Shown here: positions 6,000 to 46,805 of the stretch, piece by piece | Position numbering within the stretch: the stretch's first letter is position 1 | How the letters are laid out: each line of letters begins with the position of its first letter | Assembly: GCA_903960515.1 (NCBI GenBank) | Contig: CAJCBL010000151.1 | Coordinates: forward strand, 1 to 48,003 | Reading direction: 5' to 3' | DNA length: 48,003 nt | Origin: an uncultured Verrucomicrobiota bacterium | GTDB taxonomy: Bacteria; Verrucomicrobiota; Verrucomicrobiia; Opitutales; Opitutaceae | Translations under genes and position numbers: made by a program | The notes under the pieces: model-generated | What the model saw: only the letters and a program-made list of their open reading frames with translations | What the model was told of the DNA's origin: nothing | The model's database searches: none

Positions 6000-6319
6000 A
6001 GGTGGCTGAAGGGAAACGCAGTGGACGGAAAGGTTCCAGCGGGAAGGAGGGAGGATGGAGGCTGTGCTGGAAGAGAAAATGCAGGCATGGGCAGCGAAGG
6101 AGGTTCCAGCGGATGGGGGGGCGAGGATAGGTAATGGGCCCTATCGGCGCGGGCGGGCTGCACTGAAGTCGCGAGCTTGGGCGCGTTCGTAATCGGTTGA
6201 GCGGGGAGAAAGGGGCTCGGCTACCCGCAGTGGAGGAGTGGAGGGCTCACTGGCGCCCGGTCCCCATCGGCAACCGCCCCGGATTGCCCTGCGGAGTGGC
6301 CGGGGCCGGCCGGCCGGCC
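6000..6319. other. Intergenic region between rhomboid gene and prc
   Basis: About 320 bp without a recognisable gene. It separates the 3' end of the rhomboid gene from the 5' end of prc (both minus strand), so the prc promoter should lie here; I see no convincing -35/-10 pair. A 16-nt GGCC-repeat palindrome at 6304-6319 abuts the rhomboid stop codon and could fold in its transcript. Confidence 0.5.
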
Positions 6320-7207
6320 CTAGTGTTTGCTCAGCAGGTTGTGAGCGGCGTCTAGGGTACGTTTTTCCTCGGCGGTGAGGGAGCCGAAGCCGCTGAGGTT
6401 GATCTTGTCGAGGATGCGATCGACCTCGATCTTGAGATCATGGAGGGCAGGGATGTTGGCTTTCGCGGGGCCGGCGGCGCTTGGAGTCTTCTTTTTCTTC
6501 ATCCACGCGGGCAATTCGATCACCGGGCTGGAGGGGGCGAGTTCTACAGCCTCATCGGCTTGGCGTATGGCGCGGAAGGCGATGATGCCGGCAAGGATGC
6601 CGGCGACGTGGGCGGAATGGGCGTAGGGGCTGTGCGCCACCGGGAAGAGTTCGGCGAAGAGAAAGAAGATCGTCTCGATGCAGCCGACCACCATCAGCAA
6701 ATAGCGAGGCACCACAGTCACCGGGATGATGAAGAACAGCAGTAAGGTGAGTCGATCATAGGCGAACTGGCAGCAGAAGAGCGCCAGCAGTCCGTAGGAT
6801 CCGCCGGAGGCGCCGATGAGCAGCGGGTGCCCCGTGCGGGTGAAGTTCACTGCCAGCCAGAACAATCCGGCGGCCAAAACGGCGCCCGCGTAGGAGAGAA
6901 GCAGGCGGTTGCGGCCCAGAGCGGGCAGGAGCAGGCGCCCGATGAAGAGGATGCTCAGGGCGTTGCCGATGAGGTGGAAGAGGTTGCCCGGGTCGTGGAG
7001 GAAACTGTAGGTGAAAAGCACCCATACGCGGCCGTGCAAAATGTTGTCGGGGCTGAGGGCCAGCCAGTTGTCGGTGAAGCCCGGCGAGAGCCAGTTCAGC
7101 AGGCACTGTATTGTGAATCCGGCGACAAGGGCGCCGACCAGCCACAGCAAGGGCGCCAGCTCCTGTGCCGGGTTTGTATCGCGCATGTAATAGCGGTCGG
7201 AGCTCAT
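6320..7207 (-). CDS. Rhomboid family intramembrane serine protease
   Basis: This is a 295-residue polytopic membrane protein. The N-terminus (residues about 18-40) is a first membrane segment. VWVLFTYSFLHDPGNLFHLIGNALSILFIG (about 61-90) is the typical rhomboid region preceding the active site. GASGGSYGLLALF supplies the GxSG serine (Ser134), and YAHSAHVAGILAG supplies the partner histidine (His200). Family members cleave transmembrane substrates within the bilayer. After about residue 215 a soluble tail of about 80 residues follows (PAWMKKKKTPSAAG and IEVDRILDKINLSGFGSLTAEEKRTLDAAHNLL), resembling C-terminal extensions often attached to bacterial rhomboids. The ATG at 7207 is the only good start. 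It is divergent from the ferredoxin gene. Confidence 0.93.
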   Translation of the reverse strand: MSSDRYYMRDTNPAQELAPLLWLVGALVAGFTIQCLLNWLSPGFTDNWLALSPDNILHGRVWVLFTYSFLHDPGNLFHLIGNALSILFIGRLLLPALGRNRLLLSYAGAVLAAGLFWLAVNFTRTGHPLLIGASGGSYGLLALFCCQFAYDRLTLLLFFIIPVTVVPRYLLMVVGCIETIFFLFAELFPVAHSPYAHSAHVAGILAGIIAFRAIRQADEAVELAPSSPVIELPAWMKKKKTPSAAGPAKANIPALHDLKIEVDRILDKINLSGFGSLTAEEKRTLDAAHNLLSKH

Positions 7208-7496
7208 CGGAGGCCGGCCAGCTTAGGAATATTCGGGGGGAAAACAAGAGTCTCGCCGGTGTTTTGCAGCTTCCAGGGAAGAGACCGCACGGTTTGGTGA
7301 CCAGCCGGCCACGGGGGCGCTCCATCGCCCCGGTGGGAGGCGGAGGCGCGATCAAGGATCCGCGGCGTAGTGCGGTCGGCATGCCACGGGTGCACCATTA
7401 GTCCGGGCGCCGAGGAGCGGCGATGCGCCGTGGGCACTCGCCGGCCCGGGTTAGCCTCTTGACTCGTGGGCCGCTGCGACTTTCTCTCGTCTCACT

Positions 7497-7733
7497 ATGG
7501 CGAACAAAGCTGAAAAATGGGCCGACAACGTCGCTGGTAAATTCTACGTGGACCAGCAGTGCATCGATTGCGACCTGTGCCGCGAGACCGCTGCCGACTT
7601 TTTCTCGAGGCACGAGGAGGGTGGCTACACCTTCGTTTCCAAGCAGCCTAAAACTGATGAGGAAATCGCCCAGTGCACCGAGGCCCTTGAAGGCTGCCCG
7701 GTCGAGGCGATCGGCAACGACGGGGACCAGTAA
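7497..7733 (+). CDS. Ferredoxin, single [4Fe-4S] cluster
   Basis: This 78-residue protein has C22-IDC25-DLC28 and a distal C67-P, the CxxCxxC...CP pattern of a single-cluster 4Fe-4S ferredoxin. An extra Cys60 lies seven residues before the last ligand. The acidic composition and the flanking FYVDQQCIDCDLCRETA and EGCPVEAIG are typical of soluble ferredoxins of the Fer4_13-like type. It would carry electrons in the cytoplasm; no redox partner is adjacent. ATG 7497 is preceded by a pyrimidine-rich leader (CTTTCTCTCGTCTCACT) rather than a Shine-Dalgarno. It has its own strong terminator at 7761-7792, so it is probably a monocistronic gene. Confidence 0.9.
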   Translation: MANKAEKWADNVAGKFYVDQQCIDCDLCRETAADFFSRHEEGGYTFVSKQPKTDEEIAQCTEALEGCPVEAIGNDGDQ

Positions 7734-7760
7734 GCGAGCCGGCCAATACTGATTTTGGAG

Positions 7761-7792
7761 AAAGCGCGGTTCCGCAAGGACCGCGCTTTTTT
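7761..7792 (+). terminator. Rho-independent terminator of ferredoxin gene
   Basis: A near-perfect stem AAAGCGCGGT...ACCGCGCTTT with a short loop (TCCGCAAGG region) is followed by a T-run (CTTTTTT). It lies 28 bp after the ferredoxin stop codon. Confidence 0.9.
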
Positions 7793-7837
7793 GCGCCCGT
7801 ACGGGGGGCGGAGGTACAGGAAGGAAAAACCCGCTTG

Positions 7838-7862
7838 TTAAGGCCGTTGGATTTTGCCTTAA
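7838..7862. promoter_or_regulatory. Inverted repeat upstream of TonB-dependent receptor
   Basis: TTAAGGC (7838-7844) and GCCTTAA (7856-7862) form a perfect 7-bp inverted repeat across 11 bp, ending 10 bp before the receptor start codon. It could be an operator or a leader hairpin occluding initiation. It is not recognisable as a Fur box. Confidence 0.4.
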
Positions 7863-7872
7863 CCTGCGCCCG

Positions 7873-9723
7873 ATGCTTCGCTCCCCCAAGTCTGTACTAC
7901 TTCTCGCTGCGGTTGCCTCCCTGTCGGCCGGCTCCCGCGCCGCCGACGATGAGATCGTCCACCTGCCGCCGTTCGTCACTACTGCCACCCGGGTGGCCAA
8001 CGATTCCCCGGTAGGCACCTTCCCGATGCCCGTTTCGGGGCTGCGCTTTGAGCCTGCCGTCGATGTGCAGGCTCGCAATTTCGCAGAAGGACAGGCCGAT
8101 ATCTCCGTGCGCGGCGGCCTCTTTGAGAACACGGGCTTCAGCCTGGGTGGCGGGGCCCTCTTCGATCCGCAAACCGGACACTACGCGGCCGAATTGCCCG
8201 TGGCGCCGGCTATGCTCATGCCGGTGCGCGTGCTCACCGGGGCCGATGCCGCCCTCGCCGGGTTCAATGCCAGCGTGGCTACTCTCGCCTACGACTGGGC
8301 CCCGATCCAGACAAGGGGTGAGGCCGCAGCTGCGTTCGGCGAGCACGGATCCCGGGACGCGAGCCTGTATCAGGGTTACCTAGGTGCCGCAGCCGCCGGC
8401 GGCGCCGCCCTTGGTGTGGATCTCTCGGTGGCGCATTCCGATTCCGATGGGGCGATCCCGGGAGGCGACCACAAGTTCACCCGTTTCGCCGGCCGGCTGC
8501 AGCGCCAAAAGGGCGAAGCCCAGACCGATCTATTCGCCGGATACCAGACAAAGTTCCTCGGCTGGCCCAATCTCTACACCCCTTTCAACTGGCTGGAAAC
8601 CGACGACCTGGCCACGACGCTCGTGGGAGTGAATCACGGGGTGGGGGATACTGCCGGCGAGTTCTGGCAGGCCTCGGCCTTGTGGAGGCGCAATGTGGAC
8701 GACTACGAGGCGGATCGCACCCAGCCCGGCCGCTTCAACCCCTACCAGCATCAGACCCGGATCGCCTCGCTGGCGCTCGAGGCCCGGCAGGCTCTGGCCG
8801 GAGACTGGGCTGTGCATGGCCGCGCCGAGGCGGCCGCCGACTCCCTCGAGTCGACGTCACTGGTCTATGGGCACTTCAATTCCCGCACGTATCTGAAACT
8901 CGGAGCCGAGCTTGAGCGCACGCTGCGCCTGGCCGGCGGGGCCGAGCTCCAGTGCAAGGGCGGCGCCGCCTGGGCCGACGATAACCGCGGCGGCGGCGAC
9001 CTTTCCCCGATCGCCGAACTGGCCTGGCAGCGGGCAGCCGAGGGCTGCACCACCAGGGTCTACACCCAAGTGTCCGGCGATTCGCAGGTTGCCAGCTACA
9101 CCGCGCTCAACTCCGCCTCCGGCTCCGGGCTCTTCCGGGGCAACGCCGAGCTCGGGCGCGCGCGCAGCACCAACTGGGAACTCGGCGCAAGCCGGGGCGG
9201 AGAACGTTTCCAAGTGCAGGCGGCGTGTTTCCTGCGACAGGACAGGGACCTCACCGACTGGACCTTCCGGCGGGGCGTCACCGCCCGCACGGCCAACGCC
9301 GTAGACATCGACACCCTAGGTTTGGAGACAGTGGCCACCTGGCGCTGGGCCCATGGTCGCGCGACTGTTGGATACACCTGGCTCCAGAAGACCGAGGACT
9401 ACGGCAGCGCGCTCGTCGACGCCAGTTTCTACGCACTGAACTTCCCCCGCCAGCGCGTGACCGCCGCCCTGGTCTGGCAGCCGGTAAAACAGATCGAGTT
9501 GCGCCTGGACAACGAGTACCGCGAGCAGGAGCCCAATCTGCTCCGCCGCAGCAGCCCGCGGGCGGTGATCTCCTCGGTGGGCGTGCACTGGTTTGTGCCG
9601 CAGGTGCGCGGGTTGGAGCTCTCGGTACAGGTGGAGAACCTTTGGGGGTGCGCGTTTGAGGAGGTGCCGGCTGTACCCGCTTCCCCGCGCCAGTATTCGG
9701 CGGGTCTGGCCTACCGCTGGTAA
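7873..9723 (+). CDS. TonB-dependent outer-membrane receptor
   Basis: This is a 616-residue outer-membrane protein. Residues 1-24 form a signal peptide (SVLLLAAVASLSAGSRAA). DDEIVHLPPFVTTATR resembles a TonB-box/plug opening. The plug continues with ADISVRGGLFENTGFSLGG and VRVLTGADAALAGFNASVATLAYDW. From about residue 140 alternating aromatic and polar strands form the barrel, and the protein ends YSAGLAYRW with a terminal aromatic typical of BAM substrates. At 616 residues it is in the BtuB size class. The substrate cannot be named; no TonB, ExbB or periplasmic binding protein is adjacent. The GH16 gene downstream raises the possibility of saccharide uptake, which is inference. No cobalamin riboswitch is visible upstream; the leader contains only the TTAAGGC inverted repeat. 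Confidence 0.88.
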   Translation: MLRSPKSVLLLAAVASLSAGSRAADDEIVHLPPFVTTATRVANDSPVGTFPMPVSGLRFEPAVDVQARNFAEGQADISVRGGLFENTGFSLGGGALFDPQTGHYAAELPVAPAMLMPVRVLTGADAALAGFNASVATLAYDWAPIQTRGEAAAAFGEHGSRDASLYQGYLGAAAAGGAALGVDLSVAHSDSDGAIPGGDHKFTRFAGRLQRQKGEAQTDLFAGYQTKFLGWPNLYTPFNWLETDDLATTLVGVNHGVGDTAGEFWQASALWRRNVDDYEADRTQPGRFNPYQHQTRIASLALEARQALAGDWAVHGRAEAAADSLESTSLVYGHFNSRTYLKLGAELERTLRLAGGAELQCKGGAAWADDNRGGGDLSPIAELAWQRAAEGCTTRVYTQVSGDSQVASYTALNSASGSGLFRGNAELGRARSTNWELGASRGGERFQVQAACFLRQDRDLTDWTFRRGVTARTANAVDIDTLGLETVATWRWAHGRATVGYTWLQKTEDYGSALVDASFYALNFPRQRVTAALVWQPVKQIELRLDNEYREQEPNLLRRSSPRAVISSVGVHWFVPQVRGLELSVQVENLWGCAFEEVPAVPASPRQYSAGLAYRW

Positions 9724-9785
9724 CCGGAAACTCGTGGCAAGCATGCGCCACGGCGTGGCGGTGGCGCAGCACAGCCGGTGGGCCA

Positions 9786-9807
9786 GCAAGGGCAATTTCA
9801 CCCTTGC
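9786..9807. terminator. Hairpin downstream of TonB receptor
   Basis: A perfect 7-bp stem GCAAGGG/CCCTTGC around an 8-nt loop lies 63 bp after the receptor stop. It lacks a T-run, so it is a weak terminator candidate or a repeat hairpin. A second small hairpin, TCGGAG/CTCCGA, follows at 9853-9871. Confidence 0.4.
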
Positions 9808-9928
9808 GCCGCCGGCCGCACTTTTCAGCCTTTCTGGCGCTCAGTCCCTTGTTCGGAGTCTGTAGCTCCGACTGCCCGGCGCCCCATCCACCCCGCTTAA
9901 AGCCCGCAACCGCCATTTCTATACCCAC

Positions 9929-11548
9929 ATGCGCTTTCGCCCAATCCTCCTGCTGGTCGCCCTGATTGCGGGCTCCATCGCTTCCTCTTTCGCCAAGGAC
10001 TACAAGGCCGGAGAGATTCAGTCCAAGCAGGCTTTTCTCTACGGCAAGTTCGAGTTCCGCATGCACTGCGCTGTGGGCAGCGGCATGCTCACCAATTTCT
10101 TTCTCTACAAGGACGGCAGTGAGAAGACCGGAGCCGAGAATCGCTGGGAGGAAGTCGATATAGAGGTGTTCGGTAAGGACGGCTGCACCATCTGGCAGTC
10201 TAATATCATCACTGAGGATTACAATGGTAACAATATCACCCGCCGGGAGGGGCTACATTACGGTACGTTCAACGCCTGGCATACCTATACATTGGAGTGG
10301 ACGCCGACCTCGATGAAGTGGTTGGTCGACGGCAATGAGGTGCGCAATTTCACCGATCGCTTTATCCTCGACCGCCTCACCTCCCCCGAGCGTATCTGCT
10401 TCAATATATGGGCCGCCAATGTGGCGAGCTGGGTGGGTTGGTTCGACACCAACAGGCTCCCCCTCTATGGCTTCGTGCAGTATGTCCGCCACTATGCCTA
10501 CCAGAGCGGCTCGGGAACCTTTAGCAGCAATCCCGACTTCAACGACGAGTTCGCTAACCTCGACAATTTCTATGTGTCGACCCACACCTTTGGCGAGAAT
10601 TATGCGGATTTCGCCACCAGCAACATAGGCATCATCAATGGCACGCTCTGCATGGCGCTCACCACGGCGGCTGCCCCCGGCCTTGCCACCAGCGTCCCGG
10701 CCGACGGCGATACCCCGCCGCCTTGCGACCCTGTCGTGATTCCCGCCCGCATCGAGGCCGAAGACTTCTGCCAGAAGAGCACACCTCCGCAGCCCGAGAC
10801 CTGCGATGAAGGTGGCCAGGACATGGGCTATATCGGCGCCGGCGACTGGCTCACCTACAAGATCACCGTGCCCAGTGCGGGCACCTACCGCGCCGATTTT
10901 CGTCTCGCTGCGATGACCAACTCCCCGCAGTTCGCCCTCGAAAAGGAGACCGTCCCGGATTCGAATACCTACGCTCCCTTGGCTACCATCACCGGGGCGT
11001 CGACGGGCTCCTGGCAGGCGTGGCAAACCACCACCCAACAGATCGTGCTCCCCGCCGGCACCTACAAGATCCGGATTCTGGCGTTGGTCTCGGGTTTTAA
11101 CATCAACTGGTTCGAGTTCATCGCCCCGCCCAACCCCTTCGCCTCGTGGGCCACCGCCTGGGGCCTGTCCGGCGCCAACGCCACCACCACCGCCAACCCC
11201 AGCGGCGACGGTGTCACCAATCTCTGGAAGTTCGCCTCCAATCTCGACCCGACGCGCGCCAGCAGCGCCACCCTGGTTTCCGGCACCGGCACCTCTGGCC
11301 TGCCCTTCATCAGCACCAACCCGGTTGGGGGTGTCCCGCAACTGAAGGCCGAATACCTGCGCCGGCGCTCCACCCCGGGTTTGGTTTACACCGTGCAGTT
11401 CAGTGACGACCTCGCCACCTGGACCAACAGCAGCGCCGCAGGGACGGTGACCACGATCGATGCGACTTGGGAGCGGGTGGTGGTGGCCGACTCCAGCGTC
11501 GGGGCGCCCCGGCGCTTCGCCCGTGTACTGGTTAACTGGAGCAACTAG
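9929..11548 (+). CDS. Secreted GH16 beta-glucanase-like enzyme with CBM6
   Basis: This is a 539-residue secreted enzyme. Residues 1-22 are a signal peptide (ILLLVALIAGSIASSFA). Residues about 25-230 form a GH16 jelly-roll domain: YGKFEFRMH, then W-E-E75-V-D77-I-E79, matching the GH16 active-site signature ExDxE with nucleophile Glu75 and acid/base Glu79, and later WHTYTLEWTPTSMKWLVDG. Family enzymes cleave beta-1,3/1,4-glucans or related galactans. Residues about 270-394 form a CBM6-type carbohydrate-binding domain (RIEAEDF, GYIGAGDWLTYKITVPSAGTY, NINWFEF). The tail (395-539) carries the exported-protein module seen at 3000-3261 (GDGVTNLWKFASNLDP, YTVQFSDDLATWTN, RRFARV). It is convergent with the giant kinase gene. 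No Shine-Dalgarno precedes the ATG. Confidence 0.92.
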   Translation: MRFRPILLLVALIAGSIASSFAKDYKAGEIQSKQAFLYGKFEFRMHCAVGSGMLTNFFLYKDGSEKTGAENRWEEVDIEVFGKDGCTIWQSNIITEDYNGNNITRREGLHYGTFNAWHTYTLEWTPTSMKWLVDGNEVRNFTDRFILDRLTSPERICFNIWAANVASWVGWFDTNRLPLYGFVQYVRHYAYQSGSGTFSSNPDFNDEFANLDNFYVSTHTFGENYADFATSNIGIINGTLCMALTTAAAPGLATSVPADGDTPPPCDPVVIPARIEAEDFCQKSTPPQPETCDEGGQDMGYIGAGDWLTYKITVPSAGTYRADFRLAAMTNSPQFALEKETVPDSNTYAPLATITGASTGSWQAWQTTTQQIVLPAGTYKIRILALVSGFNINWFEFIAPPNPFASWATAWGLSGANATTTANPSGDGVTNLWKFASNLDPTRASSATLVSGTGTSGLPFISTNPVGGVPQLKAEYLRRRSTPGLVYTVQFSDDLATWTNSSAAGTVTTIDATWERVVVADSSVGAPRRFARVLVNWSN

Positions 11549-39414: not shown

Positions 39415-39996
39415 ATGAAACTCTCCAAACGCGGCGAATATGCCCTGCGCGCTCTGATCAACCTCGGCATCGCCGCCGAAGTAGGGCGCTCCCTGGTTCA
39501 GATTTCCGAGCTGGCCGACCACGAGCGCATGCCCGTGAAGTTTCTCGAGCAGATCATGAAGGATCTGAAGGCGGCCGGCTATGTATCCAGCGAACGCGGC
39601 AAATATGGCGGCTATCGCCTCGCCCTGCCGGCCGCCAAGATTCCCATCGGCGAGGTCGTGCGCCTGCTCGAAGGTCCGCTGGCCCCCATCGGTTGCGTCA
39701 GCCAGACCGCCTACGTGAAATGCTCCTGCCCCGACGAGGCCCACTGCGGCCTGCGCATGATCATGCTCGATGTGCGCAACGCCATCGCCGGTATCCTGGA
39801 CCGCTACACCGTGGCCGATCTCGTTTCGGTCACTCTGCGCAAGATGCGCGCCAGCGGCGTGGTCCATCCCTTCGCCGAGTCGCCCACGCCCCAGCCCGGC
39901 GCCTCCCGCCACTATCGCCCGCGCCCCCCGGCTACGATCAACCGGACGCCTGCCGAAGGCATCCTCTCCAGTCTGATTCCCGAATACACCATCTGA
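39415..39996 (+). CDS. Rrf2-family transcriptional regulator (cysteine regulator-like)
   Basis: This 193-residue regulator starts [20 protein letters not shown], the Rrf2 winged helix-turn-helix. [20 protein letters not shown] is the recognition region and GKYGGYRLA the wing. A cluster of Cys94, Cys103, Cys105 and Cys111 ([19 protein letters not shown]) follows and could bind an Fe-S cluster or sense thiols. The first gene position in a sulfate-transport and cysteine-synthase operon parallels the role of CymR/IscR-type regulators of cysteine or Fe-S supply; that function is inference. An AAGGA precedes ATG 39415, though the spacing is short. Sbp follows after 22 bp. Confidence 0.9.
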
Positions 39997-40018: not shown

Positions 40019-41017
40019 ATGAGCCTCCTCCGCCTTTTCGCCACCGCAGCGCTCCTTGGGGCCTCCGCCGTCCTGGCCTCCGCCAAGGACAGCGAATTGC
40101 TCAACGTCTCCTACGACCCGACACGCGAGCTCTACGTCGAGTTCAACAAGGCCTTTGCCGCCCACTGGCGGGCGAAGACGGGCGACACAGTAACCGTGAA
40201 ACAATCCCACGGTGGTTCCGGCAAGCAGGCCCGCGCGGTGATCGACGGCCTGCCGGCCGATGTGGTCACCGTCGCGCTGGCCGGCGACATCGACCCGCTG
40301 GCCAACGTCGCCAAGCTCCTGCCCACCGACTGGCAAAAGCGCCTGCCCAACAACTCCTCGCCCTACACCAGCACCATCGTCTTCTTGGTGCGCAAAGGGA
40401 ATCCCCAGCACATCCACGACTGGGATGATCTCGTGCGTACTGGCGTGGCGGTGATCACGCCCAACCCGAAGACCTCCGGCGGCGCCCGCTGGAATTACCT
40501 CGCCGCCTGGGCCTACGCCAAGCGCCACCACGGCGGCGACGCCGGTGCCCAGCAGTTTGTCTCCTCGCTGTACAAGAACGTGCCGGTGCTCGACTCCGGC
40601 GCCCGCGGCTCCACGACCACCTTCGTGCAGCGCGGTATCGGCGATGTGCTGCTGGCCTGGGAAAACGAGGCCTTCCTCGCGCTCAAGGAGTTTGGCGCCG
40701 ACGCCTTCGAGATCGTAGTGCCTTCGCTGAGCATCCTGGCCGAGCCGCCGGTGGCCGTGGTCGACAAGGTGGCCGAGCGCCGCGGCAACCGAGAGGTCGC
40801 CCAGGCCTATCTCGAGTTCCTCTACTCCGACGAGGGCCAGGACATCATCGGGCGCAATTTCTACCGCCCGAGCTCCCCGGCCGCGATCGCCAAATACGGC
40901 AAGCAGTTTCCCAAGATCGAGCTGGTCACCATCGACGCCGAGTTCGGCGGCTGGTCGGCCGCCCAAAAGACGCACTTCGCCGATGGCGCGGTGTTCGACC
41001 AGATCTTCGCCAAGTAA
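40019..41017 (+). CDS. sbp: Sulfate ABC transporter substrate-binding protein
   Basis: This is a 332-residue periplasmic protein with a signal peptide at residues 1-22. [74 protein letters not shown] and [20 protein letters not shown] are diagnostic of the Sbp/CysP family. It delivers sulfate or thiosulfate to CysTWA. The two proteins (Sbp, CysP) cannot be separated by eye; sbp is used as a general name. It lies 22 bp after the Rrf2 gene and starts at ATG 40019 without an evident Shine-Dalgarno. Confidence 0.95.
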
Positions 41018-41056: not shown

Positions 41057-41791
41057 GTGGCCCGCCCGCTTTTCGCCCACGTGTCATCCGCCTCTACAGT
41101 CCCGCCTCGCCCGTTCTCCCACCCGGTGTCGGACCGCCTCGCCCGCCTCTCGCCGCGTGCCGAGCGTTCGGATTCGCTTTTTGCCGCCCCGCTGGGGCCC
41201 GACGAGCACGGCTGCTACCTGCCGCGTTTCGCCGCCTTTGGTGCCAATACGTCCGATACCGACGCGCGCCTCTCCGTGCTCGCCGGCTTCGCCCTGGGCG
41301 ACGACGCCTCCAGCCTGGCCGCCTTCGACCTGATCGAGGCCGCAGCCAGCGCACCCGATGCCGTGGGCGGGCTCGTGCTGGATGTGGTCCCTGTGGTCAA
41401 TCGCAGCGGCGGCGACCTCTGGTCGGCCTCCTGGATCCATGCTGGGCGGGCAGAGCTCGCGCTCCTGGAGCGCGAATACCGCCGAGTGCCTCCCCACGCA
41501 GTCCTGCAACTGCGGGCGGGTTCCGGGCGGTATCCGCACGGTGTTGTCCACGGCGCCTCCATCGAGTATTGGCTCGACGGAGCCCCGGCCGCGTTGCTCT
41601 CTGCGGGCTGGTCGCGGCAGTCGCCGCACCGTGCCGCGCCCGAGGGTATCGACGGCCTGGTGCCCGACCTGCCTTTTCGCCCGCTCGAGCTTCAGCTCAC
41701 CCTGGGCCTGGACGCCGCCGGCAACGCCGCCGCGCTGCATGCGATCGTGCAGCGTATCCGCCAACTGCTCGCCCACGGCCAGTATCTCTGA
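41057..41791 (+). CDS. Degenerate M14/AspA-like protein, zinc ligands lost
   Basis: This is a 244-residue protein starting at GTG 41057, 39 bp after sbp. Its middle aligns with the adjacent M14 protein: RLSVLAGFALGDDASSLAAF against KLGLFAGIHGDEPAGGWAL, and HAGRAELALLEREY...VLQLRAGSGRYPHGVVHG against RGSAQPEVRLLEHEL...LIALHADDTSHGLYGYARG. At the metal positions, His84 of the paralogue is Leu80 here, Glu87 is Asp83 and His169 is Arg153. The LDLNRE segment is missing, and the catalytic Glu of FETP is not conserved. It is thus likely a non-enzymatic partner or regulator of its neighbour. There is no signal peptide, so it should be cytoplasmic. The fold assignment rests on this alignment only. Confidence 0.7.
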   Translation: MARPLFAHVSSASTVPPRPFSHPVSDRLARLSPRAERSDSLFAAPLGPDEHGCYLPRFAAFGANTSDTDARLSVLAGFALGDDASSLAAFDLIEAAASAPDAVGGLVLDVVPVVNRSGGDLWSASWIHAGRAELALLEREYRRVPPHAVLQLRAGSGRYPHGVVHGASIEYWLDGAPAALLSAGWSRQSPHRAAPEGIDGLVPDLPFRPLELQLTLGLDAAGNAAALHAIVQRIRQLLAHGQYL

Positions 41792-41804
41792 GCCCGCCGC
41801 CGCC

Positions 41805-42644
41805 ATGCCTGCCTTGCTCGTATCTGCCGATCCGGCACCACTTGCCACCGTGCCCGCCATGCCAACCGTCGATCCCTTGGGCTCGCTGCTGGACGCTTTC
41901 CTCTCGCTCTCCGCAGAGCATCCGGAACTGCTGGGCTTCACCCTCGGCCGTAGCGGCGGGGCAGGGGAGGGCGGCGCGCTGGTGCGCTACACCTGGAAGG
42001 GCCCGCGCGGAGGCGGCACCGGGCGTGTGAAACTCGGGCTGTTCGCCGGTATCCATGGCGACGAGCCTGCTGGGGGCTGGGCGCTGCTCGATTTCGCTGC
42101 CGCTTTGCTCGCCAGGCCCGAGCTGGGCGAGGGTTTCGAGTTCGTATTCTATCCCTGCTGCAACCCCACCGGGCTTGTGCTCGGCACGCGTTTCAACTCC
42201 GCCGGGCTCGACCTCAACCGTGAGTTCTGGCGCGGCTCCGCCCAGCCCGAGGTGCGCCTGCTCGAGCACGAGCTGGACCTCCAGTCTTTCGATGGCCTCA
42301 TCGCGCTCCATGCCGACGATACCAGCCACGGCCTCTACGGCTACGCCCGCGGCCGGCTGCTCGCCGAGGAGCTTCTGCGCCCCGCCCTGGCCGCCGCTTC
42401 GGCGGTGTTGCCGGCCAACCACGATTCGGTGATCGACGGTTTCCCGGCCGAGCGCGGGCTGATCCGCGACTGCTTCTGCGGCGTGCTTGCTGCCCCTGCC
42501 GGGCAGCGGCCCCAGCCCTTCGATATCATCTTTGAAACCCCGGCACTGGAACCGCTGGCCGCCCAGCGCTCCGCCGCTGTACTCGGGCTCCAGGCTCTCG
42601 TAGCCACCCATCGCCGCTTCATCTCCTATGCCGACGGTCTCTGA
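41805..42644 (+). CDS. M14-family succinylglutamate desuccinylase/aspartoacylase-like hydrolase
   Basis: This is a 279-residue zinc hydrolase. GLFAGIHGDEPAGG supplies H84-x-x-E87 and LIALHADD supplies His169, the third zinc ligand. GLDLNREFW contains the substrate-carboxylate-binding Asn138-Arg139, and IIFETPA the catalytic Glu244. Family enzymes remove acyl groups from N-acyl amino acids or trim peptides. In this operon an N-acylated sulfur amino acid or thiol precursor is a reasonable but unproven substrate. ATG 41805 is 13 bp after the degenerate paralogue; ATG 41859 is an alternative. Its 3' end overlaps the start of cysT by 17 bp, so it is translated within the operon. Confidence 0.88.
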   Translation: MPALLVSADPAPLATVPAMPTVDPLGSLLDAFLSLSAEHPELLGFTLGRSGGAGEGGALVRYTWKGPRGGGTGRVKLGLFAGIHGDEPAGGWALLDFAAALLARPELGEGFEFVFYPCCNPTGLVLGTRFNSAGLDLNREFWRGSAQPEVRLLEHELDLQSFDGLIALHADDTSHGLYGYARGRLLAEELLRPALAAASAVLPANHDSVIDGFPAERGLIRDCFCGVLAAPAGQRPQPFDIIFETPALEPLAAQRSAAVLGLQALVATHRRFISYADGL

Positions 42645-43560
42645 AACCACCGATCCACGCGTCGATCTCGAGATTCGCGCAATACCGGTGCCCCGCGGGT
42701 CGGGCCGCTCGGTGCTGCCCGGCTTCGGGCTCTCGCTGGGGTATACGATTTTCTACCTCAGCCTGATCGTGCTGGTGCCGCTCTCGGCCGCCTTCATCAA
42801 GACCGCCGGAATGTCGTGGGCGGATTTCTCCGCCGCTGTATTCTCGCCGCGGGTGCTGGCCGCCTATCGGGTGAGCTTCGGGGCCTCGCTGGCCGCCGCC
42901 ACCGCCAACGCGGTCTTCGGTCTGGTGCTGGCCTGGGTGCTGGTGCGGTATCCGTTCCCCGGGCGTCGCGTGGTCGATGCGCTGGTCGACCTGCCCTTCG
43001 CGCTGCCCACGGCTGTGGCCGGCATCGCCCTTACCCAGCTCTACGGTGTTCACGGCTGGATCGGCACCTGGCTCGAACCCCTGTGGGCGAAGACTGTGGG
43101 TGCGGCGCCCTGGCTTTCCTGGGTCGGAGCGAAGATCGCCTACGATCGGCCGGGCGTATTCCTGGCGCTCACCTTCATCGGTCTGCCGTTTGTCGTGCGC
43201 ACCCTCCAACCGGTATTGGAAGAACTGGAACCCGAACTGGAGGAGGCCTCGGCCACCCTCGGCGCCTCTCGCTGGCAGACGATCACCCGGGTGCTGTTGC
43301 CGGAGCTCGCCCCGGCGCTGCTCACCGGCTTCGCGCTCTCGTTCGCGCGGGCGCTGGGCGAATACGGCTCGGTTGTCTTCATCTCCGGCAACATGCCATA
43401 CCGCACCGAGATCGTGCCGCTGCTCATCATCACCAAGCTCGAGCAATACGACTACCGCGGGGCCACCGCGCTCGCGGTGGTGATGCTCGTGGCCTCCTTC
43501 GTACTGCTGCTGCTCATCAACCTGCTCCAAAAGTGGAGCCGCCGTCACCACCGCGTCTGA
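42628..43560 (+). CDS. cysT: Sulfate ABC transporter permease CysT (CysU)
   Basis: This is a 310-residue inner-membrane permease with about six helices: GFGLSLGYTIFYLSLIVLVP, VSFGASLAAATANAVFGLVL, ALPTAVAGIALTQLYG and VFLALTFIGLPFVVRTLQPV among others. The EAA loop, which couples to CysA, is EEASATLGASRWQTITRVLL. LGEYGSVVFISGNMPYRTEI is diagnostic of CysT. It overlaps the M14 gene by 17 bp. It pairs with CysW. Confidence 0.95.
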   Translation: MPTVSETTDPRVDLEIRAIPVPRGSGRSVLPGFGLSLGYTIFYLSLIVLVPLSAAFIKTAGMSWADFSAAVFSPRVLAAYRVSFGASLAAATANAVFGLVLAWVLVRYPFPGRRVVDALVDLPFALPTAVAGIALTQLYGVHGWIGTWLEPLWAKTVGAAPWLSWVGAKIAYDRPGVFLALTFIGLPFVVRTLQPVLEELEPELEEASATLGASRWQTITRVLLPELAPALLTGFALSFARALGEYGSVVFISGNMPYRTEIVPLLIITKLEQYDYRGATALAVVMLVASFVLLLLINLLQKWSRRHHRV

Positions 43561-43586: not shown

Positions 43587-43621
43587 CACTTCTGAGTTCT
43601 TCACTCTACGTTTTGACTTGG
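43587..43621 (+). repeat. Heptad-periodic leader upstream of cysW
   Basis: Five 7-bp steps, CACTTCT GAGTTCT TCACTCT ACGTTTT GACTTGG, are followed by TTTCC and the ATG of cysW at 43627. A pyrimidine core recurs each 7 bp. Confidence 0.55.
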
Positions 43622-43626
43622 TTTCC

Positions 43627-44553
43627 ATGTCCTCCGCTCCCTCACGCTCGCTAGCCCATCGCAGTGCCGCCGCTACGCCCCGCGCCACCCAGGACCCCTC
43701 CTGGGCGCGCTGGCTGCTCACTGGCGTGGCGCTGCTCTTTGTTGCGCTCTTCCTGCTGCTGCCACTGGTAGCGGTGTTCACCGAGGCGTTGCGCCGCGGG
43801 GTGGGCGCTTACCTGGCCTCCTTCACCGAATCCGACGCGCTCTCGGCCCTGCGGCTCACCCTGCTGACCGCCGTGATCTCAGTGCCGGCGAATCTGGTTT
43901 TCGGAGTCGCCGCGGCTTGGGCCATCGCGAAGTTCAACTTCTTCGGCAAGAGCCTGCTTCTCACACTCATCGACCTGCCCTTCGCGGTGTCGCCGGTGAT
44001 CTCGGGGCTGATCTACGTGCTGATCTTCGGTCTGCAGGGTTGGTTCGGCCCGTATCTTGTTTCCGGTGAGCACCCGTGGCTGGGCGCCTGGCTCAACGCC
44101 CGCGACATCCAGATCATCTTCGCGGTGCCGGGCATCGTGCTGGCCACGATCTTTGTCACCTTCCCCTTCGTCGCGCGTGAACTCATACCGCTGATGCAGG
44201 CGCAGGGCACCGACGAGGAGTACGCCGCCATCACGCTGGGGGCGAGCGGCTGGCAGACCTTCCGCCGCGTAACCCTGCCCAACATCAAGTGGGGCCTCTT
44301 CTACGGCGTGATCCTTTGCAACGCCCGCGCCATGGGCGAGTTTGGCGCCGTCTCCGTGGTCAGCGGACACATCCGCGGGCAGACCAACACCCTGCCGCTG
44401 CACGTGGAAATCCTCTACAACGAGTACAACTTCGTGGCCGCCTTTGCCGTGGCCTCGCTGCTGGCGCTGCTCGCCCTGGCCACGCTTGTATTGAAGAGCC
44501 TGGTCGAGTGGCGTTTCGCCCGGGTCCTGGCCAGCGCGAAGGCTGAAAACTGA
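43627..44553 (+). CDS. cysW: Sulfate ABC transporter permease CysW
   Basis: This 308-residue inner-membrane permease starts at ATG 43627; a TTG nine bases upstream is less likely. Helices include [20 protein letters not shown] and [20 protein letters not shown]. The EAA loop is [40 protein letters not shown] and [16 protein letters not shown] are CysW signatures. It forms the sulfate channel with CysT. A 181-bp spacer of heptad repeats separates it from cysA. Confidence 0.95.
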
Positions 44554-44734: not shown

Positions 44735-45784
44735 ATGTCCATCCTCGCCTCACACATCACCAAGCACTTCGGCGCCTTCCGTGCGCTCGACGATGTAAAC
44801 CTCTCCGTGGGTGCCGGAAAACTGGTGGCGCTGCTCGGGCCCTCTGGCTCGGGCAAGACCACACTGCTGCGCATCATCGCCGGCCTGGAGCACGCCGACC
44901 CCGGTGCGGGCAGCGTGGCCTTCCACGGTGAGGACGTCACCCATGTGCCCGCCGGCAAGCGCCGTGTGGGCTTTGTATTCCAGCACTACGCACTGTTTCG
45001 TCACATGACCGTGAGCGAGAACATCGCCTTCGGCCTCGATGTGCGCCCCCGCTCACAGCGCCCGGCCAAGAGTGAGATCGCCGACCGCGTCAACGCCCTG
45101 CTCAAGCTCGTGCAGCTCGACGACCTGGGCGGGCGTTTCCCCACCCAGCTCTCCGGCGGCCAACGCCAGCGCGTGGCCCTCGCCCGCGCCTTGGCCGTGG
45201 AGCCCAAGGTGCTCCTGCTCGACGAACCCTTCGGCGCCCTCGACGCCCGCGTGCGCAAGGACCTGCGACGCTGGCTGCGCCGCTTCCACGACGAGATCGG
45301 GCTCACCACCGTTTTTGTCACCCATGACCAGGAGGAGGCCCTCGAGATCGCCGACGAGGTGGTGGTGATGAACAACGCCCGCATCGAACAGGTGGGCACA
45401 CCGCAGACCGTCTACGACCGCCCCTCCACGCCCTTCGTGTACCAGTTTCTGGGCAACGTGAACCGCCTGCGCCTGCCCTGGCACGGCTACCTGCCCGAGA
45501 CGGCCCTGGCCGCCCCCGATGGCACCGAAGCGGTATTCGTGCGCCCGCACGACCTCGAGCTCGTGCGCCACCAAAGCGGCATCGACGGCGAGCCGGGCAC
45601 CGTGCTCACCATCCACGCCGCCGGCGCCCGCGCCTGCCTCACCTGCCAGCGCCGCTCCGACGGCGAGCGCATCGAGGTGGAGCTCTCCCGCGCCGAATAC
45701 GACCAGCTCCAGGTGCGCCCCGACGACGCCGTGCTCCTGCGCATCCGCCACAGCCGCGCCCTGCGCGAAGAATACGCGATTTGA
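44735..45784 (+). CDS. cysA: Sulfate/thiosulfate import ATP-binding protein CysA
   Basis: This 349-residue ABC ATPase has Walker [12 protein letters not shown] (Lys41), Q-loop [16 protein letters not shown], signature [15 protein letters not shown], Walker [13 protein letters not shown] and the H-loop in [10 protein letters not shown]. Residues from about 240 form a TOBE-like C-terminal domain ([14 protein letters not shown]). It energises sulfate import through CysTW. No Shine-Dalgarno is present; the leader is the pyrimidine arm of the heptad repeat. Confidence 0.95.
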
Positions 45785-45827
45785 TTTTCTCCTAGCAATC
45801 CACCCGGAACACCAACCAAACACCACC

Positions 45828-46805
45828 ATGGCACGCATCTACAGCGACATCACCCAGACCATCGGCAACACCCCGCTTGTTCGCCTCAACCGCACCGCCG
45901 CCAAGCACGGCGCCCAGGCCGAGATCCTCCTCAAACTCGAGTTCTTCAACCCGCTCTCCAGCGTGAAGGATCGTATCGGCGCCGCTATGATCGAGGACGC
46001 CCTCGCCAGCGGTAAGATCAACCAGAGCACCGTGCTCATCGAGCCCACCAGCGGCAACACCGGCATCGCCCTGGCCTTCGTGGCCGCCGCCAAGGGCCTC
46101 AAGCTCATCCTCACCATGCCCGAGACGATGAGCCTGGAGCGTCGCAAACTTCTCAAGATCCTCGGTGCCCGCCTCGTTCTTACCGAGGGCGCCAAGGGGA
46201 TGAAGGGCGCCATCGCCCGCGCCGAGGAGCTGCAGAAGCAGATCCCCAACAGCGTAGTGCTCCAGCAGTTCTCCAACCCCTCCAATCCCGCCGTCCACCG
46301 CCGCACCACCGCCGAGGAGATCTGGCGCGATACCGACGGCAAGGTCGACATCGTCGTCTCCGGTATCGGAACTGGCGGCACGATCACCGGCGTGGGCGAG
46401 GTGCTCAAGGAGCGCAAGCCCGGCATGCAGATCGTAGCCGTGGAGCCCGACGCCTCGCCGGTGCTCTCCGGTGGCACCCCCGGCCCGCACAAGCTGCAGG
46501 GCATCGGCGCCGGCTTCGTGCCCGGCGTGCTCAACACCAAGATCTACGACGAGATCATCCGGGTGAAGGAATCCGACTCCGGTCCGGTATCCAAGCAGGT
46601 GACCACCCTTGACGGCATCCCGGTGGGAATTTCCTCCGGAGCCGCGATCTGGGCTGCCCTGCAGCTCGCCCAGCGCCCTGAAAACGCCGGTAAGCAGATT
46701 GTGGTGATCGTGCCGTCCAGCACCGAGCGCTACCTCTCCACCTGGCTCTTTGCCGATGTGAATACCGACACCGACAGCATCGACGACCTCATCGCCGCGA
46801 CCTGA
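45828..46805 (+). CDS. cysK: Cysteine synthase A (O-acetylserine sulfhydrylase)
   Basis: This 325-residue PLP enzyme forms cysteine from O-acetylserine and sulfide. [11 protein letters not shown] carries the PLP lysine Lys47, EPTSGNTG binds the substrate carboxylate, and [11 protein letters not shown] forms the phosphate-binding loop. It starts [20 protein letters not shown] at ATG 45828, 43 bp after cysA, with no Shine-Dalgarno (leader ACCAACCAAACACCACC). It is the last gene of the sulfate operon; sulfite and sulfate reductase genes are not in the window. Length fits CysK (about 310-325). Confidence 0.96.

Follow-up and report, generated by a model that had tools for sequence, protein, structure and literature searches.

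What does a protein do that appears to have the fold of a zinc hydrolase without its metal ligands, and that is encoded among sulfate-uptake genes beside a relative that retains them all? This question is raised by a 48,003-nucleotide stretch of DNA, hereafter the window, from an uncultured Verrucomicrobiota bacterium of the Opitutaceae (order Opitutales; contig CAJCBL010000151.1 of assembly GCA_903960515.1). Two neighbouring genes, which we call P1 and P2, lie in it between sbp and cysT:

41057..41791, + strand: P1, M14/AspA-like paralogue without the catalytic residues (profile match to the P2 family, fold, motif table)
41805..42644, + strand: P2, predicted M14/AspA-like zinc hydrolase with all motifs (PF24827 30.4 bits, predicted structure)

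P1 has 244 amino acids (aa) and a GTG start. P2 has 279 aa when read from the ATG at 41805; the mechanical open reading frame (ORF) begins at 41358. An earlier interpretation made from the letters alone (the sequence-only reading) had taken P1 for a pseudoenzyme and the pair for a heteromeric or regulated hydrolase. Here the pseudoenzyme claim is upheld and extended to a protein family, whereas the heteromer claim finds only partial support.

Pairwise BLAST of P1 against P2 found no similarity (best E 13), and P1 had no match in Pfam or NCBIfam at E up to 1. When ten P1 proteins were scanned, none matched the AstE/AspA–M14 families and one matched DUF6621 at E 0.099. The kinship is nevertheless visible by three other routes. 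The P2 query (P0002) matched the P1 orthologues of genomes G013, G050, G066 and G114 with E values of 1.7e-18 to 7.7e-11. A profile of ten P1s matched a profile of eight P2s with a probability of 99.65 and an E value of 5e-25 over 247 columns. Against PDB sequences, the P1 profile gave weak rows only, with M14 proteins among them (2qvp, E 0.21). The third route is the fold. The predicted structure of P1 had a predicted local distance difference test score (pLDDT) of 63.7 and a predicted template modelling score of 0.65, as the best of five models with pLDDT 39.4–63.7. Foldseek gave 37 PDB matches to it at E ≤0.001, the best at 1.3e-6; their titles mark nearly all of them as M14, the exception being 3llc. 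Realignment (VIA) to carboxypeptidase B gave a Z score of 15.0 and a root-mean-square deviation (rmsd) of 2.9 with 180 residues aligned. The 50 matches listed in that search were carboxypeptidases, by title in all but TAFI and 9j7l, which we take to be carboxypeptidases too. P2 was modelled with a pLDDT of 92.9, and comparison of this model with solved structures gave Z 27.1 for 4oko and Z 27.0 for 2qvp, a Shewanella protein.

Because the P0002 matches, the profile–profile match and the fold of P1 agree, we accept that P1 is homologous to P2 despite the silence of BLAST. The alignment of the two proteins along the zinc-hydrolase core, claimed in the sequence-only reading and unseen in pairwise BLAST, is borne out by the profiles. 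That reading had also named a non-M14 fold of P1 as the result that would count against it; the predicted structure instead matches M14.

The residues of the active site were then compared. All counts refer to an alignment of 141 rows, obtained after removal of three duplicate loci (L093, L116 and L170), and are given in P2 numbering. The window P2 has the zinc-ligand residues H84, E87 and H169, the N138-R139 pair and the catalytic E244, so that all motifs are present, as had been claimed. Among 97 P2s, H84 and E87 are found in 97, R139 in 95 and each of H169, E244 and N138 in 96. Few rows deviate. In L047 (G054, 6086–7033), a P2 on a long branch, H84 and E87 are retained, the N-R pair is gone and H169 is replaced by F. 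L044 (G021, 6638–7525) has Q at the catalytic E244, and L144 has H at R139.

In the window P1, the zinc-ligand positions H84, E87 and H169 are occupied by A79, D82 and R153, the NRE positions by W122-S123-A124 and the position of the FETP glutamate by T215. The replacement of His169 by Arg153 and the loss of the NRE and FETP motifs had been read correctly before; the residues given as Leu80 and Asp83 are A79 and D82. The loss extends across the family. Of 40 P1-like proteins, none has H84 together with E87 (L109 is unreadable there), none has N138 and only one has E244 (L185); homologues retaining HxxE...H, which would have made this a local case, were thus looked for and not seen in these 40. 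Individual ligands do occur, with H84 and D87 in L044 and L159, D84 and E87 in L041, and H169 in L085, L088, L092 and L186, and an aspartate stands at the E87 position in 33 of the 40. In the main Opitutaceae group of P1s, W142 is conserved in 25 of 25 rows, and in 19 of the 25, over pairwise identities of 37–85%, the former metal pocket has become acidic (D/E84, D/E87, D120 and E169; the acidic set). The window P1 and its nearest relative (L078) are without this set, having A79 (or S), D82, N115 and R153 in window numbering. Judged by these residues, P1 reads as a homologue of the AstE/AspA–M14 zinc hydrolases and not as a functional member.

Such a loss could simply mark a decaying pseudogene of P2, since the catalytic residues of P1 are gone and the window P1 is shorter than P2. 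However, the frames are open in many species and the ratios of nonsynonymous to synonymous substitution rates (dN/dS) are well below 1, which shows purifying selection. Over 13 locus pairs, dN/dS was 0.11–0.34 for P1 and 0.07–0.37 for P2, and between the window and L078 it was 0.26 and 0.25, respectively; these values come from a simple counting method, the 13 pairs share loci and are not independent, and some frames have run-on N-termini. In a tree of 108 rows, all 30 P1 rows formed one clade with deep branches (Shimodaira–Hasegawa-like approximate likelihood ratio test (SH-aLRT) 97). Its root was set with 11 further M14/AspA-like proteins from the order, and it came from a short search with no bootstrap; the P1 of L109, which is truncated, and 22 P2 rows closely related to others were left out. 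Ten of the 40 P1-likes, fetched afterwards or truncated, are not part of the tree, among them those of family f29, L159 and L171–L174. As the dN/dS of P1 resembles that of P2 and the loss of ligands is conserved across the family, local decay was rejected, and we regard a decaying pseudogene as barely credible. That P1 is a conserved pseudoenzyme with an M14 fold, as the sequence-only reading had it, we hold with high confidence.

A second copy of P2, degenerate and close to sbp or cysK, was also seen in other Verrucomicrobiota, at L098 (7763–8602), L097 (8061–8900) and L114 (10432–11298). The L098 copy falls inside the P2s of other Verrucomicrobiota (SH-aLRT 100) and, by this placement, appears to have an origin separate from P1. 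The Chthoniobacteria copies L097 and L114 join the P1 clade at SH-aLRT 94, on long branches whose placement we do not rely on. This may mean that dead partners have been made more than once in this cluster, once separately in L098 and, with uncertain placement, in L097 and L114.

The genes around the pair in the window are as follows:

39415..39996, + strand: Rrf2-family regulator (TIGR00738 116.5 bits, cut-off 73.3)
40019..41017, + strand: sbp, sulfate-binding protein of an ABC transporter (TIGR00971 489 bits, cut-off 155.5)
42628..42644, + strand: overlap of P2 and cysT, 17 bases
42628..43560, + strand: cysT, sulfate permease (TIGR02139 394 bits, cut-off 246.1)
43618..44553, + strand: cysW, sulfate permease (TIGR02140 402.7 bits, cut-off 329.1)
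44735..45784, + strand: cysA, sulfate transporter ATPase (TIGR00968 383.3 bits, cut-off 342.75)
45738..46805, + strand: cysK, cysteine synthase A (TIGR01139 445.9 bits, cut-off 350.95), SVKDR motif intact

On the + strand the order is metallo-β-lactamase (MBL)-fold hydrolase, Rrf2, sbp, P1, P2, cysT, cysW, cysA and cysK. Sbp, CysT, CysW and CysA all score over curated cut-offs and their genes are contiguous and co-directional, which identifies a sulfate ABC transporter operon. The position of the pair between sbp and cysT and the overlap of P2 with cysT are as first described. The start of the cysK frame at 45738 was chosen for translation and is provisional. The gap between the Rrf2 gene and sbp is 22 bases. 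The nearest equivalog of the Rrf2 regulator is CymR, a regulator of cysteine metabolism (NF047409), at 81 bits, below the cut-off of 195; the assignment therefore stays at the Rrf2 superfamily, whose cut-off is passed. By eye, and with no predictor used, no signal peptide was apparent in P1 or P2, and both would be cytoplasmic.

The pair is found in part of the order and phylum. A single-sequence search found P1 in seven of 132 genomes of the Opitutales. In a phylum sample of 387 genomes, the P1 profile matched 35, P2 cross-matches included, and P2 was present at E ≤1e-30 in 27. A scan of species genomes with the P2 alignment gave 125 relatives sharing one conserved peptide pattern, of which the best 80 loci were retained; among these best 80, all but one were titled Verrucomicrobiota or undetermined bacterium, with L157 titled Betaproteobacteria. 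CysT was over its cut-off in 20 of the 132 genomes of the order, and here both P1 and P2 were in the operon in seven, P1 only in two (G055 and G070), P2 only in one (G102) and neither in the remaining ten. The search for the order sbp-P1-P2-cysTWA that had been suggested for the Opitutales showed it to recur in three families (f1, f20 and f21).

We further compared 115 loci, chosen for P1, P2 or CysT and so not a random sample, with labels counted on one strand of each stretch. Of these, 28 have P1, P2, sbp and cysT (L159 being counted by its P2 remnant), 22 have P2, sbp and cysT, ten have the transporter without either gene and 31 are partial or P1-only. Among 100 copies labelled P2, three degenerate ones included and the remnant of L159 excluded, cysT is the next gene in 46, with 24 overlaps and 15 gaps of ≤50 bases, so that the overlap in the window is of a usual kind. 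A second sbp or a cysK sometimes intervenes between P1 and P2; the order P1-sbp-P2-cysT is seen in L038, L081, L095, L099 and L172. P2 adjoins cysK together with cysTWA in L043, L137, L141 and L142, and without cysTWA in L101, L106, L079 and, via the second copy, L098. In L088, P1 and P2 are followed by a Cys/Met pyridoxal phosphate (PLP) enzyme. These neighbours link P2 with cysteine synthesis no less than with sulfate transport.

Other proteins were observed at the same sites. In G095 (L161, 4966–5865, + strand) a CysK-like protein is encoded between sbp and cysT in which SVKDR has become NLEDR, the PLP lysine being replaced by glutamate; its PALP match (E 5.7e-7) reaches 29.6 bits, where the gathering score is 35. 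A short relative of it (47% over 95 residues) lies between sbp and P1 in G021 (L044, 8271–8765, − strand). By its motif, the NLEDR protein may be another pseudoenzyme of the cys operon. In L186, a protein with a helix-turn-helix and a phosphotransferase system (PTS) EIIA-type part (9368–10132) is encoded between sbp and cysT, the place held elsewhere by P1 and P2, and an O/P type porin (7117–8310) between Rrf2 and sbp. Unlabelled ORFs of ~400–600 aa fill the Rrf2–sbp gap in other operons of the class.

Each gene also occurs without the other. In G055, P1 is intact and its stretch has 87% DNA identity to that of G021, with ~700 bases absent inside P2: two matching blocks that abut in G055 are separated by 700 bases in G021. 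The operon of G070 holds two P1-likes but lacks P2, weaker P0002 matches lying on other contigs, and in G288 cysT comes after P1 and no frame resembling P2 intervenes. Distant P1-likes are present in four genomes of family f29 (G285, G355, G358 and G347) with no P2 at E ≤1e-30. They adjoin an Rrf2 gene on the opposite strand in G358 and G347 and lie one ORF from Rrf2 in G285. Three of these four proteins (L178, L179, L185 and L186) have an EHCE-type N-terminal motif. In G013, P1 and the cys operon are on different contigs. Since P1 persists in these genomes, it does not need P2. Conversely, other Verrucomicrobiota commonly have P2 with no P1.

Where both genes occur, they appear to evolve together. 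Over 23 loci, the distances of P1 and P2 correlated with r 0.85, compared with 0.40–0.69 for other gene pairs. The value was 0.74 after removal of cysW and cysA as background (others 0.45–0.51), and 0.73 when eight long-branched loci were left out, leaving 19 of 27 (others 0.34–0.43). No genes of the compared sets evolve faster than P1 and P2, which favours such a correlation, and the correlations of the other pairs were also reached by ≤15 of 2000 permutations. Some coupling of P1 and P2 where both occur is therefore likely, with the correlation as support and not as proof.

Turning to the enzyme, P2 scores 30.4 bits on PF24827 (gathering 25), which 30 of 31 P2s match at E ≤0.01, and 15.9 bits on the zinc carboxypeptidase M14 family PF00246, under the gathering score of 21.6. 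It is far under the cut-offs of the three NCBIfam models that it matches. The best of its models is the N-acetylornithine deacetylase NF052223, matched by 31 of 31 P2s scanned; on the aspartoacylase equivalog NF002601 P2 reaches 12 bits against a cut-off of 180, which places it outside that equivalog. A role in arginine synthesis as an N-acetylornithine deacetylase is less needed because the window genome has an ArgJ match (265.6 bits, E 8.9e-79, albeit under the cut-off of 298), and it was set aside. The same genome has CysE-like candidates (best E 2.9e-43, under cut-off). O-acetylserine, the product of CysE, rearranges to N-acetylserine, which is not used by cysteine synthase. From its residues, the window P2 is very probably an active hydrolase and would bind zinc. 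An N-acyl sulfur amino acid, the example given in the sequence-only reading, is a plausible substrate, with NF052223 the nearest curated model and with the link to cysK. Given the N-acetylserine by-product and the N-acetylcysteine deacetylases of Bacillus subtilis, deacylation of N-acetylserine or N-acetylcysteine would be the most economical role; that the substrate is an N-acyl amino acid of the cysteine pathway at all remains a tentative suggestion.

The explanation that we favour combines these points. P2 would be an M14/AspA-type zinc amidohydrolase working in cysteine assimilation, hydrolysing an N-acylated amino acid of that pathway such as N-acetylserine (the isomer of O-acetylserine) or N-acetylcysteine. 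P1 would go back to an early duplication, within the Opitutales lineage, of a gene resembling P2. It has lost the zinc ligands and the pair that would hold the substrate carboxylate, its fold is retained, and selection maintains it, presumably in a role without catalysis. It would then regulate the sulfate/cysteine operon by binding a ligand or a partner, in connection with P2 if P2 is present and on its own if not. P1 is most likely non-catalytic, and this operon is its putative target. On balance we consider a regulator the better description of P1 than an enzyme of another kind, as a regulator that binds another ligand or a partner protein best accounts for a gene that is conserved and tied to the operon, diverges in step with P2 and can persist without it. 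The explanation as a whole we prefer with reserve, at a little under an even chance.

Several observations weigh against this explanation. The model of P1 is of middling confidence, with two of the five models reaching pLDDT ≥60, and in Foldseek its template modelling scores by query length are ≤0.59, with large rmsd. Two of the P2s that adjoin a P1 are themselves damaged (G054 and G021). Many of the sequences come from metagenome assemblies, and the deletion in G055 could be an assembly fault. Ten of the 20 sampled Opitutales cys operons are without both genes, and the pair is thus accessory to the operon. At 24 of the 115 loci, P2 is present with no sbp, cysT, cysW or cysA labelled on its strand of the stretch compared, so that the job of P2 may not be strictly sulfur. 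On NF052223, P2 scores 46.6 of the 400 bits asked for, which leaves it outside that family and makes the substrate a guess. Finally, with the N-R carboxylate pair lost, P1 probably does not bind the substrate of P2 in the old way.

The alternatives differ in what they make of the partner. If P1 and P2 formed an obligate heteromeric hydrolase with P1 as a structural or allosteric subunit, one could readily understand why the genes are adjacent or near, co-directional and often tightly packed, and why their distance correlation is at the top of the pairs tested (0.82–0.85, and 0.73 without the long branches). The independently degenerate tandem copy of L098 also repeats the arrangement, in reverse order. 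However, P1 is retained with P2 absent or gutted in G055, G070 and G288, P1-likes without P2 are found in the four f29 genomes, the P1 of G013 is on a contig apart from the cys operon and P2 without P1 is common. Fast genes such as P1 and P2, moreover, give a better correlation signal than slow ones, of which cysT is an example, and nearly all permutations fell short of the other pairs as well. The P1-only genomes led us to downgrade this reading, which we think rather unlikely: as a subunit of P2, P1 is probably not obligate. The suggestion of a heteromeric or regulated hydrolase thus stands as regards coupling and is weakened as regards an obligate unit.

The same genomes point towards P1 as a stand-alone ligand-binding regulator, acting on CysTWA, CysK or Rrf2, with P2 as a mere paralogue next door. 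P1 stays in the cys operon after the loss of P2, the f29 P1-likes lie beside Rrf2 (G358 and G347) or one ORF from it (G285), and the former metal pocket is acidic in 19 of 25 main-clade P1s. The strong correlation between P1 and P2 speaks against such independence, as does the window P1, which is without the acidic set; we see this alternative as unlikely, if still one to be reckoned with. The acidic set could also mean that the main-clade P1s are metal-swapped and not dead, binding another metal for a different chemistry, since acidic residues occupy three former zinc-ligand positions and that of N120 in 19 of 25 rows that span 37–85% identity. But E244 is missing from 39 of 40 P1s, the main clade included, and N138 from all 40, other P1 groups, that of the window among them, are without the set, and such residues may just as well attract a cation or a basic partner. 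A metal swap is accordingly improbable. A bolder reading makes P1 a lineage-specific pseudoenzyme sensor of sulfur assimilation, that is, a dead former N-acyl-amino-acid hydrolase that would bind a signal, with its pocket rebuilt as acidic in the main clade, beside an active paralogue that would remove the signal and that it can outlive. We offer this as a doubtful, speculative idea.

P1 is a gene without a Pfam or NCBIfam match, and these results give a first lead on it; they also tie the P2 family to cysteine and sulfate metabolism in the Verrucomicrobiota. A conserved dead relative among sulfate-import genes suggests an unrecognised regulatory part of sulfur acquisition in this bacterial group. 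With P1 conserved, an intact-motif paralogue adjacent and the natural loss of either partner, the question of subunit or regulator is directly testable. In a literature search restricted to open-licence papers, no title or abstract described the P1–P2 pair, and none placed an AspA-like gene within a sulfate operon.

Among known systems, P2 shares its fold and three motifs (HxxE...H, N-R and E) with the succinylglutamate desuccinylase/aspartoacylase family PF24827 and the M14 family PF00246, and differs by its setting in a sulfate/cysteine operon and its sub-gathering score on PF00246; P1 differs from these enzymes by its catalytic loss. The Shewanella putative metallopeptidases 2qvp, 3b2y and 3ieh are the solved structures closest to P2 by sequence (best E 8.5e-18 in a PDB sequence search) and, with 4oko (Z 27.1), by fold (Z 25.6–27.0). 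They are uncharacterised proteins, and our guess is that NF052223, whose model name ends in Shew, was built on them. For the proposed reaction there is a precedent in ScmP, YhaA and YtnL of B. subtilis, proteins of another fold family (M20-type) that are likened to P2 by reaction and not by sequence. In the part of the source consulted, these are metal-dependent N-acetylcysteine deacetylases of sulfur metabolism, and no pseudoenzyme partner is mentioned there (PMC12757645).

As for P1 itself, pseudoenzymes are well known in eukaryotes; to our knowledge, few are known in bacterial nutrient-uptake operons. The sections used of a survey of M14 pseudopeptidases give four in vertebrates and one in yeast (AEBP1, CPXM1, CPXM2, CPD domain III and Ecm14) and name no bacterial one (PMC11266112). 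As described in those sections, the animal and yeast proteins are like P1 in having an M14 fold with altered ligands or catalytic residues, conserved for a non-catalytic role. They are eukaryotic and carboxypeptidase-like, whereas P1 is bacterial and is encoded beside an intact-motif paralogue in a nutrient-uptake operon.

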